Assembly (NCBI RefSeq): GCF_003788635.1
Contig: NZ_AYKH01000021.1
Span: 1-35,614, forward strand
Direction of reading: 5' to 3'
Length of the DNA: 35,614 nucleotides
Origin: Salinisphaera orenii subsp. orenii MK-B5
GTDB lineage: Bacteria; Pseudomonadota; Gammaproteobacteria; Nevskiales; Salinisphaeraceae
Part shown: in pieces, positions 2,893-7,504 of the stretch
Layout: every line of letters begins with the position of its first letter
How positions within the stretch are numbered: position 1 is the first letter of the stretch
Translations under genes and position numbers: made by a program
Notes under the pieces: generated by a model
Databases searched by the model: none
Told to the model about the DNA's origin: nothing
Seen by the model: only the letters and a program-made list of their open reading frames with translations

Positions 2893-4092
2893 TTAATCCC
2901 AACTCAACGCCCCACCCGACTGATACTCAATCACCCGAGTCTCAAAGAAGTTCTTCTCCTTGTTCAGATCCATCATCTCGCTCATCCACGGGAACGGGTT
3001 CTCCGCGCCGGGATACAGCTCGGCCAGGCCGATCTGTGAGCAGCGGCGGTTGGCGATGAACTTCATGTACTCGTCGAACATTGAGGCGTTCAGGCCGAGC
3101 ACGCCACGGGGCATGGTGTCGTGGGCGGATTCGATCTCGAGGTGCATGGCCTCGTCGATCTTGGCCCGCATTTCCTCCTGGAAGCTCTCGGTCCAGAGGT
3201 GCGGGTTCTCGATCTTGATCTGGTTGATGACGTCGATGCCGAAGTTCAGGTGCATGGACTCGTCGCGCATGATGTACTGGATCTGCTCGGCGGTGCCGGT
3301 CATCTTGTTGCGGCGGCCGAACGACAGGAACTGGACGAAGCCGGCGTAGAACCAGATGCCTTCGAAGATGACGTAGAAGGCGATGAGGTCGCGCAGAAAC
3401 TTCTGGTCGTTCTCGGGTGTGCCGGTGGTGAAGTCCGGGTCGTTCAGGCTCTGGGTGAACTGCATGGCCCAGGCGGCCTTGTTGTGCACGCTGGGCAGCT
3501 CGCGGTACATGTTGAAGATCTCGCCCTCGTCGAGGTTGAGGCTCTCCACGATGTACTGGAAGCAGTGGCCGTGCACGGCTTCCTCGAACGCCTGGCGCAG
3601 CAGGTACTGGCGGCATTCGGGGTTGGTGAGGTGCTTGTAGATGCCCAGCACCAGGTTGTTGGCCACCAGCGATTCGGAGGACGAGAAGAAGCCGAAGCCG
3701 CGCTTTAGGATCATGCGCTCGTCGTCGGTCAGGCCGTTCGGGTCCTGCCAGGTGGCGATGTCCGCGGCCATGTTCACTTCCTGCGGCATCCAGTGGTTGG
3801 CGCAGGCGTTGAGGTACTTCTCCCAGGCCCAGGTGTACTTGAAGGGCACAAGCTGGTTGACGTCGGCGCGGCAGTTGATGATCTGCTTTTCGTCGACGGA
3901 GACGCGGTCGCCGCCGAGCTCGACCTGCTCCAGCCCGGTGACGGACTCGCCGGTCTCGTCTTCCGGCGCCGCCTCGGCGGCCTTGTCGAGCGCGAACGGG
4001 TCGGGCGATTCGCCGGCCGGATTGGGGTGGGTGGACGTACCGGGGCGCGGGGTCGGCGTGCCCTGGCGCGGGGTGTCTTCGAAGTCGAGCAT
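2893..4092 (-). CDS. nrdB: Ribonucleoside-diphosphate reductase beta subunit, class Ic type (Phe at the radical site)
   Basis: This 399-residue protein is the R2 subunit that generates the oxidant used by NrdA to make deoxyribonucleotides. Candidate metal ligands are Glu140, Glu171, His174, Glu244, Glu278 and His281 (in SSSES, EEAVHGH, VIFEGIW and RDESMH). The residue where E. coli NrdB has its radical Tyr122 is Phe178; its TTC codon is at 3559-3561. All seven positions keep the exact spacing of the Chlamydia trachomatis protein (E89, E120, H123, F127, E193, E227, H230), each offset by 51. This points to a Mn/Fe cofactor without a tyrosyl radical. A Pro/Glu-rich N-terminal extension of about 60 residues precedes the fold. 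The C-terminus ends in Tyr390 and an SGGALSWD tail that probably docks on NrdA. AAGGGA precedes the ATG. It lies 197 bases after nrdA on the same strand. Confidence 0.95.
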
Positions 4093-4289: not shown

Positions 4290-7200
4290 CTACTGGCAGG
4301 CCTCGCAGTCCGGGTCGTCGATGGCGCAGGCCATGGGCGCGGTCGGCTGGGCCGCCGGGGCGGCGGTGGCCCCGGCCGGCGCGTGCTGCACGCCGTTGCT
4401 GGCCGAGCCGTTGCTCCCGCCCTGACCGGTCGCCGAGGCCGTGGGCCACTCGCCGCCGCCGGCACCGGAGGCCGAGCCGCCGCCCGCGGCGGGCGCCCCG
4501 CCGCTGCCGTGGCCGCCGTGGTTGACGGCGTTCAGGCGATGGTCGGTGACCGTGGATTTCTCCACGTGGGTCGCCCCCATGGTGCGCAGGTAGTAGGTGG
4601 TCTTCAGGCCCTTCTTCCAGGCCAGCTTGTAGAGCTCGTCGAGCTTGCGGCCCGACGGTTCGGCCATGTAGAGGTTCAGGCTCTGGGCCTGGTCGATCCA
4701 CTTCTGCCGACGCGAGCCGGACTCGACCAGCCAGCGCGGGTCGATCTCGAAGGCGCATTTGTAGAGCACCTTGAGCTCGTCCGGGATGCGGTCGATGGCC
4801 TGCACGGAGCCGTCGTAGTACTTGAGGTCGTTGGCCATGACCTCGTCCCACAGCTCGAGGGCCTTGAGGTCCTCGACCAGGTACGGGTTGGCCACCGTGA
4901 ACTCGCCCGACAGGTTCGATTTGACGTACAAGTTCTGGTATGTCGGCTCGATGGACTGCGACACGCCGGTGATGTTGGCGATGGTCGCGGTCGGGGCGAT
5001 GGCCATGGTGTTGGAGTTGCGCATACCGACCTGGCCGATGCGGCTGCGCAGGGCCTCCCAGTCCAGCGTGGCGCTGTCGTCCTGCTCCAGATAGGGCTCT
5101 CCGCCCGGGGCTTCGCCGCGGTTCTCGCGCAGCAGGCGGATGGAGTCGATCGGCAGGATGCCCTGGTCCCAGAGGCTGCCCTTGAAGGAACTGTAGGCGC
5201 CGCGTTCCTCGGCCAGGTTGGTCGAGGCCTTGATCGCAAGGTAGCTGATCTGCTCCATGGAACGATCGGCGAACGCGACCGCCTCGTCCGACTCATAGGG
5301 CAGCTTGAGCTTGTACAGCGCGTCCTGGAAGCCCATCAGACCCATGCCCACCGGGCGATGCCGCAGATTGGAGTCGCGCGCGGTCTTGACGCTGTAATAG
5401 TTGTATTCGATGACGTTGTCGAGCATGCGCATCGCGGTGTTGATCGTGGCTTCCAGCTTGGCCACGTTCAGCTCGCCGCCTTCGATGTGCTGCGGCAGGT
5501 TCACCGATCCCAGATTGCAGACCGCGATCTCCTTGCCCGGCGAGGTGTTGAGCGTGATCTCCGTACACAGGTTGGAGCTGTGCACCACGCCGCGGTGCTG
5601 CTGCGGGCTGCGCAGGTTGCACGGGTCCTTGAAGGTGAACCACGGGTGGCCCGTTTCGAACAGCAGGCTCAGCATCTTGCGCCACAGATTGACCGCGGAG
5701 ATCTTCTTGAAGTTGGTGATCTCGCCGCGGGCGGCCTTGGCCTCGTAGCCCGCATAGGCCTCCTCGAAGGCCGCGCCGGTCAGATCGTGCAGGTCCGGCA
5801 CGTCGTTGGGCGAGAACAGCGTCCATTCCTCGTCGTTGAGCACGCGCTTGACGAACAGATCCGGGATCCAGTTCGCGGTGTTCATGTCGTGGGTCCGGCG
5901 CCGGTCGTCACCGGTGTTCTTGCGCAGGTCGAGGAACTCCTCGATGTCCTTGTGCCAGGTCTCGAGATAGGCACAGACCGCGCCCTTGCGCTTGCCGCCC
6001 TGGTTGACCGCCACGGCCGTGTCGTTGACGACCTTGAGGAACGGCACCACGCCCTGCGACTTGCCGTTGGTGCCCTTGATGTGGGCGCCCATGGCGCGGA
6101 CGTTGGTCCAGTCGTTGCCCAGACCGCCGGCGAATTTCGACAGCAGGGCGTTGTCCTGCACCGCCTCGTAGATGCCGTGCAGGTCGTCGGCGACGCTGGT
6201 CAGATAGCAGGACGAGAGCTGCGGGCGCAGCGTGCCGGAGTTGAACAGCGTCGGCGTCGAGGACATGAAGTCGAAGCTCGACAGCAGCTTGTAGAACTCG
6301 ATCGCCTTTTCCTCACGCTCGATCTCGTTGATCGCCAGGCCCATGGCCACGCGCATGAAGAACGCCTGCGGCAGCTCGAAGCGGCGCGATTCGTAGTGGA
6401 TGAAGTAGCGGTCGTAGAGCGTCTGCAGGCCGAGATAGGTGAAGCCCAGATCGCGGTCGGCGATCAGCGCGTGGCCGAGCCTGTCCAGATCGTACTCGCC
6501 CAGGCGCGGGTCGAGCAGTTCGTGCTTCACGCCGCGGGCGATGAAGTCCTTGAAGTACTCGGGATAGCGCTCGCGCATCTCGGCGTGGGTGGCGTACTCC
6601 ACCGCGTCGTCGGCGAGGAAGGTCAGCGCCTCGTGGCGCAGCTTGTCCATGAGCAGGCGCGCGGCGACCGTGCCGTAGTTGGGCTCGGCCTCGAGGCGCT
6701 GGCGCGCGGACAGGATGAGCGCGGTCGACAGCTCATCCTCGGTGATGCCGTCGTAGGCGTTCTTGAGCGTGTCGGCCAGCACCTTCTCGTCGGAGACGCC
6801 GGCCACGTCCGCACAGGCCTCGTCGATGACGCGCGTCAGCCGGTCGCGGTCCAGCGGCGTGACGGTGCCGTCGTTGAAGGAGACGTTGATCTCGTTGGAC
6901 ACGGCCTCGCCGGCGCCGGTCTCGGCCTGCTTGGCCGCGCGCTCGCGGGCGCGCTCCTCGCGATAGAGCACGTAGGAGCGGGCGACCTTGTGCTCGCCGA
7001 AGCGCATCAGCGCCAGCTCGACGTAGTCCTGGATGTCCTCGATGTGGACCGCGCCGCCGCCGGGCAGGCTGCGGGTCACGCCCGAGACGACCTGCTCGGT
7101 GATGTCCTTGACGGTCTGGCGGATGCGGCTGGAGGCCGCGCCCTGCCGGCCCTCGACATCGATGAACGCCTTGGTGACGGCGAGCTCGATCTTGGAGGCG

Positions 7201-7337
7201 TCGAACGGCGTGACCTTGCCGTTGCGCCGGATGACCTTGTGGCCGCCCGGCGCGGTCGCCTCGATGCTCGCCCCGTCCGACGCCGCCGGCTGCTGCGTGT
7301 GCGCCGTCGGGCGCTCGGAAACCTCTGTCTGCTCCAT
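4290..7337 (-). CDS. nrdA: Ribonucleoside-diphosphate reductase alpha subunit with two ATP-cones
   Basis: 1015 residues, the catalytic R1 subunit. An ATP-cone at about 33-125 (KVIRRNGKVTPFD...) is followed by a second cone-like region at about 150-240 (DGTVTPLDRDRL...), then the ten-stranded barrel. The active site is recognisable: Cys377 (SSCYLTS), the N589-x-C591-x-E593 triad (SNLCTEI) and Cys607 (CNLGSVN). The Gly/Ala/Ser-rich C-terminal tail ends in a CEAC pair (1011, 1014) that would relay reducing equivalents. I chose the ATG at 7337 because GGAG lies seven bases upstream. A longer in-frame start at 7466 would run through the predicted promoter and one NrdR box. Two N-terminal cones are also typical of Pseudomonas-type NrdA. 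The gene is cotranscribed with nrdB. Confidence 0.97.
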   Translation of the reverse strand: MEQTEVSERPTAHTQQPAASDGASIEATAPGGHKVIRRNGKVTPFDASKIELAVTKAFIDVEGRQGAASSRIRQTVKDITEQVVSGVTRSLPGGGAVHIEDIQDYVELALMRFGEHKVARSYVLYREERARERAAKQAETGAGEAVSNEINVSFNDGTVTPLDRDRLTRVIDEACADVAGVSDEKVLADTLKNAYDGITEDELSTALILSARQRLEAEPNYGTVAARLLMDKLRHEALTFLADDAVEYATHAEMRERYPEYFKDFIARGVKHELLDPRLGEYDLDRLGHALIADRDLGFTYLGLQTLYDRYFIHYESRRFELPQAFFMRVAMGLAINEIEREEKAIEFYKLLSSFDFMSSTPTLFNSGTLRPQLSSCYLTSVADDLHGIYEAVQDNALLSKFAGGLGNDWTNVRAMGAHIKGTNGKSQGVVPFLKVVNDTAVAVNQGGKRKGAVCAYLETWHKDIEEFLDLRKNTGDDRRRTHDMNTANWIPDLFVKRVLNDEEWTLFSPNDVPDLHDLTGAAFEEAYAGYEAKAARGEITNFKKISAVNLWRKMLSLLFETGHPWFTFKDPCNLRSPQQHRGVVHSSNLCTEITLNTSPGKEIAVCNLGSVNLPQHIEGGELNVAKLEATINTAMRMLDNVIEYNYYSVKTARDSNLRHRPVGMGLMGFQDALYKLKLPYESDEAVAFADRSMEQISYLAIKASTNLAEERGAYSSFKGSLWDQGILPIDSIRLLRENRGEAPGGEPYLEQDDSATLDWEALRSRIGQVGMRNSNTMAIAPTATIANITGVSQSIEPTYQNLYVKSNLSGEFTVANPYLVEDLKALELWDEVMANDLKYYDGSVQAIDRIPDELKVLYKCAFEIDPRWLVESGSRRQKWIDQAQSLNLYMAEPSGRKLDELYKLAWKKGLKTTYYLRTMGATHVEKSTVTDHRLNAVNHGGHGSGGAPAAGGGSASGAGGGEWPTASATGQGGSNGSASNGVQHAPAGATAAPAAQPTAPMACAIDDPDCEACQ

Positions 7338-7438: not shown

Positions 7439-7466
7439 ACTCTACCCCACTAGATACTGTGGTCAA
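7439..7466 (-). promoter_or_regulatory. Predicted sigma-70 promoter of nrdAB
   Basis: Read on the minus strand: -35 TTGACC (7466-7461), a 16-base spacer, and -10 TAGAGT (7444-7439). Transcription would start near 7432, giving a leader of about 95 bases before the nrdA ATG at 7337. The downstream NrdR box fills the spacer, which fits repression by blocking RNA polymerase. The promoter elements are matched by eye; the pairing with NrdR boxes raises confidence. Confidence 0.6.
7447..7462. promoter_or_regulatory. NrdR box 1
   Basis: CCACTAGATACTGTGG fits the 16-base NrdR palindrome (ACwAtATaTwGt core) with small deviations. It lies between the predicted -35 and -10 of nrdAB. NrdR is the ATP/dATP-sensing repressor of ribonucleotide reductase genes and usually binds two boxes in tandem. 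Confidence 0.75.
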
Positions 7467-7488
7467 GTCGCGGTTTTGGCCCCTTCAG

Positions 7489-7504
7489 TCACTATATGTT
7501 GTGC
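7489..7504. promoter_or_regulatory. NrdR box 2
   Basis: TCACTATATGTTGTGC is a strong match to the NrdR palindrome. Its centre is 42 bp from that of box 1, about four helical turns, so both boxes would lie on the same face of the DNA. Tandem boxes a whole number of turns apart are a hallmark of NrdR control. The more usual spacing is about three turns. Confidence 0.8.

Follow-up and report, generated by a model that had tools for sequence, protein, structure and literature searches.

The locus analyzed here raises the question of how a gammaproteobacterium came to encode a ribonucleotide reductase (RNR) small subunit with phenylalanine at the position of the radical tyrosine, and what kind of enzyme it forms. 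The window, i.e., the whole stretch of DNA that was analyzed, comprises 35,614 nucleotides from Salinisphaera orenii subsp. orenii MK-B5; the family, order, and genus referred to below are those of this source organism (Salinisphaeraceae, Nevskiales, and Salinisphaera, respectively). The relevant features are as follows:

2893..4092, minus strand (read 4092 -> 2893): nrdB, a class Ic-type beta subunit of 399 amino acids (Glu140/Phe178)
3673..3675, minus strand: codon 140 of nrdB, GAA, Glu, the first metal ligand
3562..3564, minus strand: codon 177 of nrdB, TGC, Cys
3559..3561, minus strand (read 3561 -> 3559): codon 178 of nrdB, TTC, Phe, at the radical-Tyr position
3343..3345, minus strand: codon 250 of nrdB, GCC, Ala
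4290..7337, minus strand: nrdA, upstream of nrdB, the alpha subunit of 1015 amino acids from the ATG giving MEQTEV, with two ATP-cone matches
7489-7504 (found by pattern) and 7447-7462 (found by eye), minus strand: two NrdR-box-like sequences upstream of nrdA

The forward-strand reading of 2893..4092 is interrupted by stop codons, and the nrdB open reading frame lies on the minus strand. In profile searches its product matches the Pfam model PF00268 (Ribonuc_red_sm) with 303 bits and the NCBIfam model NF005550 with 665 bits, against a cut-off of 309. The PF00268 match, together with the presence of all six carboxylate and histidine ligands, places it among the class I RNR beta subunits (R2). 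The residues of interest in the translation are W101, E140, E171, H174, F178, Y180, E244, Y273, E278, H281, and Y390. Among solved structures, the closest chain is 6Y2N (583 bits), followed by the Chlamydia trachomatis R2c chains at 437-438 bits and then by a chain at only 148 bits.

The original prediction held that the TTC codon at 3559-3561 puts Phe178 at the radical-Tyr position, that the first ligand is a glutamate as in Chlamydia, and that the six ligands and this Phe are spaced as in C. trachomatis R2. On the minus strand and in the alignment all three claims are borne out: the equivalents of E89, E120, H123, F127, E193, Y222, E227, and H230 of C. trachomatis R2c (1SYY numbering) are found at a constant offset of 51, with E140 corresponding to E89 and F178 to F127. 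Further along the chain, W101 corresponds to W51 (offset 50) and Y390 to Y338 (offset 52). A fourth claim, that Tyr273 lines up with chlamydial Tyr222, is correct as an alignment but does not hold as a mark of class Ic. Within this clade the residue is not diagnostic because it is also present in relatives with the Asp/Tyr pair (Asp as first ligand, Tyr at the radical site), in which 54 of the 55 rows have Tyr in this column. The remaining row, from a metagenome-assembled genome (MAG) locus, L016, reads X because its nrdB has a stop codon there.

In the scheme given in the text of PMC8463856, a Phe/Glu pair denotes class Ic, Tyr/Asp denotes class Ia or Ib, and Tyr/Glu denotes class Id. The window NrdB displays both marks of class Ic, F178 and E140. 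By virtue of its Phe178 it lacks the Tyr/Glu combination of class Id, and with six of six ligands retained it differs from class Ie, in which three metal-ligand glutamates are lost. The class Id R2 of Flavobacterium johnsoniae likewise has a glutamate as first ligand, and its oxidant is described as metal-based (PMC8463856), but it retains the Tyr that is replaced by Phe in the window protein. Hence, the window NrdB bears the class Ic sequence signature, a kind of enzyme that is already known.

A close parallel is offered by C. trachomatis R2c (1SYY, 4D8F), with which the window NrdB shares 57.6% identity, the radical-site Phe, the first-ligand Glu, and all of the ligands, as well as equivalents of Trp51, Tyr129, Phe197, Tyr222, and Tyr338. 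By homology with this protein, NrdB is most likely metallated by Mn/Fe. Under such a mechanism, Mn would enter site 1 and Fe site 2, and reaction with O2 (or H2O2) would yield a Mn(IV)/Fe(III) cofactor, whose Mn(IV) would take the place of the tyrosyl radical as the oxidant of the NrdA cysteine. During cofactor assembly, W101 and Y273 would serve the one-electron reduction, and the link to alpha would be provided by Tyr390 in the C-terminal region; all three of these electron-relay residues are kept, though they are not Ic-specific inside this clade. One alternative is that the protein is not class Ic at all, being instead either an iron-only enzyme or an R2-like ligand-binding oxidase (R2lox). 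The statements in PMC4118035 that sequence does not reveal the metal, and that a first-ligand Glu alone does not determine metal choice, speak for this alternative. Set against it, the R2lox models score only 28-53 bits, far below their cut-offs of 194-346, and the genome searches found no other beta subunit; NrdB moreover adjoins nrdA and keeps Tyr390, a C-terminal Tyr being absent from R2lox. We accordingly regard this alternative as improbable.

The possibility that Phe178 reflects a sequencing or assembly error can be addressed by comparison within the family. The Glu140/Phe178 pair is present in all 17 family genomes examined, which span three genera (one was read from a fragment). A Phe-specific DNA pattern (EEAxHxHx-Phe) is matched in 16 of these, and in the 17th, which has an unread base in the motif, the translation still reads Phe. 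An error can be dismissed with near certainty because Glu and Phe occur together in every one of the 17, and we found nothing in its favor. The class Ic signature is thus fixed across the family. The rest of the order presents a different picture: the Phe pattern has no match among its 68 other genomes, and the main NrdB is of the Asp/Tyr type in 21 of 21 genomes read, spanning five other families. Two additional genomes of the order (loci L166 and L167) encode a distant NrdB, 37% identical to that of the window, again with Asp/Tyr. Among the best 80 listed loci of named genomes, the Asp/Tyr pair is present in 79, the exception being L003 with Glu/Phe. This locus (NZ_JAGHQU010000001.1), assigned to Endozoicomonas sp. 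G2_2, has an NrdB identical to that of a member of the genus (G009), and its name is probably a mislabel.

We next consider what else the organism has for making deoxyribonucleotides. The window genome (98% complete) has one PF00268 small subunit and one PF02867 large subunit, the latter model also detecting class II enzymes, as judged from control genomes. Profile searches of this genome found neither a class III enzyme (NRDD), nor a second NrdB, nor any other class II or III back-up. A second, intact Tyr-bearing nrdB acting as the active copy, which the original prediction had named as grounds for abandoning its reading, was thus sought in the genome and none was found. To the extent covered by these searches, the Phe enzyme is thus the organism's sole route to de novo DNA precursors. 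Fourteen genomes of the genus were compared: NrdB is single-copy in all of them (in one case split between contigs), NRDD was found in none, and class II NrdJ was found in two (G003 and G005). Elsewhere in the order, second NrdB copies with 65-70% identity are seen in eight genomes (G025, G032, G036, G037, G040, G053, G055, and G058); in seven of the eight the match starts at query residue 67 or beyond, and the three that were read (L163-L165) are all Asp/Tyr.

The neighborhood of the genes offers several observations. The two sequences at 7447..7504, presumptive NrdR boxes, are spaced 42 bases apart, center to center; the one at 7489-7504 has three mismatches to the NrdR-box consensus, and no such match arose in 100 shuffles. 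Directly after nrdB, at 1186-2799 on the minus strand, is a gene for an AAA ATPase of the AriA/PtuA kind, which may be a defense ATPase: its best PADLOC match is AriAB (82 bits), and NCBIfam defense models fall below their cut-offs. The window also encodes a fatty-acid-desaturase-family protein and a rubredoxin-binding reductase, which would fit the context of an alkane degrader.

The history of the large subunit provides the frame in which that of NrdB can be read. In a 60-row NrdA tree, built by a quick method without bootstrap, the window family nests in its own order with an SH-aLRT support of 100, and its neighbors carry an Asp/Tyr beta; family f3 is its sister, at 92. AU tests on 45 of the 60 rows, for which the groups were chosen once the tree was known, reject both a clade uniting the window family with f90, a second family with Glu/Phe NrdB (p 6e-9), and a clade holding 14 Glu/Phe rows out of 19 (p 1e-4). 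Because NrdA nests among Asp/Tyr order-mates and its union with the other Phe lineages is rejected, it seems that in the window family beta changed type and alpha did not, the latter staying with the lineage of the order. NrdA is not vertical in every member of the order, since that of L166 lies outside the clade of the order, with Thioalkalivibrio. The nrd operon of L166 and L167 (genomes G024 and G030) is one of mixed history: NrdA is 65% identical to the window NrdA, and the NrdB from the same stretch is at 37%, with Asp/Tyr and another motif. Taken together, we consider it likely that the window encodes an NrdAB class I enzyme with a class Ic-type beta, and that this beta changed type before the family diversified, with the alpha lineage unchanged. 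What this adds to a known kind of enzyme is its context, a switch of beta type throughout one family whose alpha belongs to the lineage of the order.

The phylogeny of NrdB itself is less straightforward. After removal of L001, L002, L099, and L123-L125, which are duplicates or fragments, 37 of 121 rows were thinned out, and an unmasked tree was built from the other 84. It contains only two states, Asp/Tyr (58 rows) and Glu/Phe (26 rows), and needs two changes between them; the window family, f90, and EF2 (the group with 6Y2N) form one clade with support of 86/96. In a second tree of 85 rows, likewise thinned and with duplicate loci left out, the trait neighborhood was masked and a distant Asp/Tyr outgroup was included. 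Here, three Glu/Phe groups are recovered, requiring three changes: C. trachomatis joins Halorussus, both on long branches (93/97), EF2 stands by itself (100/98), and the window family pairs with f90 (98/83). None of the 85 aligned rows has a mixed Asp/Phe or Glu/Tyr pair. A single origin of all Glu/Phe NrdB proteins is absent from the best trees, and one clade of all three groups appears in 0% of 200 bootstrap trees; the AU test is borderline here and gives no firm rejection (p 0.087). Uniting the window family and f90 (EF1) with EF2 gives an AU p of 0.21 and is not rejected. In a 64-row subset of the 85 rows, the best tree no longer joins the window family to f90, and placements of the window family with the order (AU p 0.34), with f90 (0.47), and with f90 plus EF2 (0.23) are all acceptable.

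C. trachomatis R2c is not the nearest relative of the window NrdB; in these trees Asp/Tyr branches intervene before the chlamydial and haloarchaeal proteins are reached, though the AU test does not firmly reject a single Glu/Phe clade. Placement among Tyr-radical proteins, coupled with Phe as an error, was a further outcome that the original prediction had regarded as fatal; the first half proved true, since the neighbors of NrdB in our trees are Asp/Tyr proteins rather than C. trachomatis R2c, but the supposed error did not. The best match among the solved chains, 6Y2N, is the R2 of Saccharopolyspora erythraea, as the text of PMC7467353 indicates; it is also Glu/Phe, with 71.8% identity. Though actinobacterial, it clusters with the EF2 proteins, which come from the class of the window organism and from another class of its phylum. 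The Asp/Tyr NrdB proteins of the order-mates belong to the same clade as the window protein, with 68-77% identity for the main copies, the two distant ones at 37% excepted, as do those of Pseudomonas and Acinetobacter (two rows, 66-71% identity). Proteins of both sets differ from the window NrdB in having Asp as first ligand, Tyr at the radical site, Ala177, and Val or Cys at 250.

The residues that separate the two types are few. In a comparison of 80 rows, 28 Glu/Phe and 52 Asp/Tyr, from which L163-L167 were left out, only columns 140, 177, 178, and 250 are fully disjoint. A wider check covered 150 distinct sequences of >45% identity, 149 of them readable, in which overlapping loci of one gene may count twice. 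There, column 250 is Ala, Thr, or Gly in 36 of 36 Glu/Phe proteins and Val or Cys in 113 of 113 Asp/Tyr proteins, and column 177 is Thr or Cys in all 36 of the former and Ala in 111 of the 113 latter. C. trachomatis R2c, a PDB chain outside the 149, has Thr at 177 and Ser at 250. Column 177 was discarded as a strict marker, given that two viral Asp/Tyr proteins (2/113) carry Ser or Thr there and that L166 and L167 carry Thr. The two viral exceptions come from 12 viral loci added as a fresh test, which were all Asp/Tyr and tested that side of the rule only. Beyond the clade the column 250 rule fails, the Asp/Tyr proteins of L166 and L167 (37%) having Asn and the Asp/Tyr chain 7AIL having Ser. 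As a guess, residues 177 and 250 might pack near Phe178. D-to-E, A-to-T, Y-to-F, and V-to-A are each possible by a single base change.

As to how beta changed, point changes, recombination of a central segment, and replacement of nrdB are all possible. One route is a switch in place, by the point changes D140E, A177T, Y178F, and V250A in the Asp/Tyr NrdB of the order, in parallel to the other class Ic lineages. The limitation of the disjoint columns to just four agrees with this, as does the membership of the window NrdA in the order. Further, at the 28 columns separating Asp/Tyr from EF2, the window family follows Asp/Tyr at 16, EF2 at 10, and neither at 2; for f90, 18 columns agree with Asp/Tyr and 4 with EF2, the remaining 6 being mixed or of another kind. 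Against such a route, only 140 and 178 of the 10 EF2-like columns are so by definition, and both tests prefer another tree to the one that groups the family with its order, though they do not reject the latter. We view a switch in place as a serious possibility that falls somewhat short of an even chance.

Alternatively, nrdB alone could have been replaced, with an R2c-type nrdB, or just its metal-binding core, arriving from an f90- or EF2-like lineage beside the resident nrdA. Besides the clade in the unmasked tree, the distribution of similarity along the protein suggests as much: residues 165-194 are nearer to f90 and EF2 (0.89 and 0.84) than to the order-mates (0.71), but residues 300-344 are nearer to the order-mates. 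Site likelihoods, with the trait columns omitted, favor the order by 10.7 lnL over 60-136 and f90 plus EF2 by 12.5 lnL over 137-184, lean by 2 to 5 either way elsewhere in NrdB, and have the grouping with f90 and EF2 as their best tree. The EF2-like columns of the window family cluster at 137-181 (Fisher p 0.005 or 0.011, including columns 140 and 178). Once these two defining columns are removed, the clustering weakens to p 0.028 or 0.051. The block test likewise gives a weak effect: the circular-shift fraction is 0.057 in the comparison with the EF2 tree and 0.024 in that with the f90 tree. Moreover, masking the trait neighborhood loses the join with EF2, the 64-row set no longer shows the join with f90, and coupled changes near the metal site would yield the same pattern. 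The L166 and L167 loci, considered as an earlier case in the order of nrdB moving without nrdA, were discounted as such, because the L166 NrdA is also outside the order. We consider replacement possible but less likely than not.

Taking these findings together, we would give about an even chance to the broader proposition that a Tyr-radical enzyme switched to Mn/Fe within one order, with alpha resident, through about four coupled changes (140, 177, 178, and 250) acquired in place or by a short recombination. Class Ic would then be a type that is easily reached and has evolved repeatedly, rather than a single ancient lineage.

The scattered distribution of class Ic has also been reported before. 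Lundin et al. 2010 (PMC3019208) note the Phe variant in haloarchaea, Chlamydiae, and other bacteria, and the text of PMC3824934 calls the R2c of Lundin et al. polyphyletic, its own tree of fewer sequences having found one clade. Of 369 genomes sampled from the class, 14 match the Phe pattern, 12 of them with NrdB relatives; of 398 from the phylum, 12 match it, 10 of them with NrdB relatives. All of these relatives are Glu/Phe. Four pattern matches (L114, L122, L169, and L176) were rejected as they are not NrdB relatives. Plasmid and phage searches yielded the Halorussus locus as the only one bearing on the Glu/Phe question. In Pseudomonas phages vB_PpuM (H63-H71), the nrdB match is split in two, and beneath it lies a hypothetical protein, perhaps an intervening element. 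The trees include one PDB chain each from Actinobacteria and Chlamydiae, one plasmid locus from archaea, and a few MAG records from Cyanobacteria and Chloroflexi. Among the open-access papers searched we found nothing on this enzyme in Salinisphaera, and on class Ic in Gammaproteobacteria nothing beyond PMC3824934 and work on the evolution of Chlamydiae.

The determinants of metal choice in these enzymes are described in PMC4118035 as an open question. The Glu/Phe family and its Tyr-bearing order-mates, at 68-77% identity and with the same NrdA lineage, constitute a close natural pair in this regard; few residues separate the two types, and the sequence basis of the cofactor change is therefore testable in vitro. 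Further, an apparently free-living bacterium with a class Ic enzyme as the sole RNR found bears on the remark in PMC4118035 that iron limitation would be a constant requirement for such an organism.
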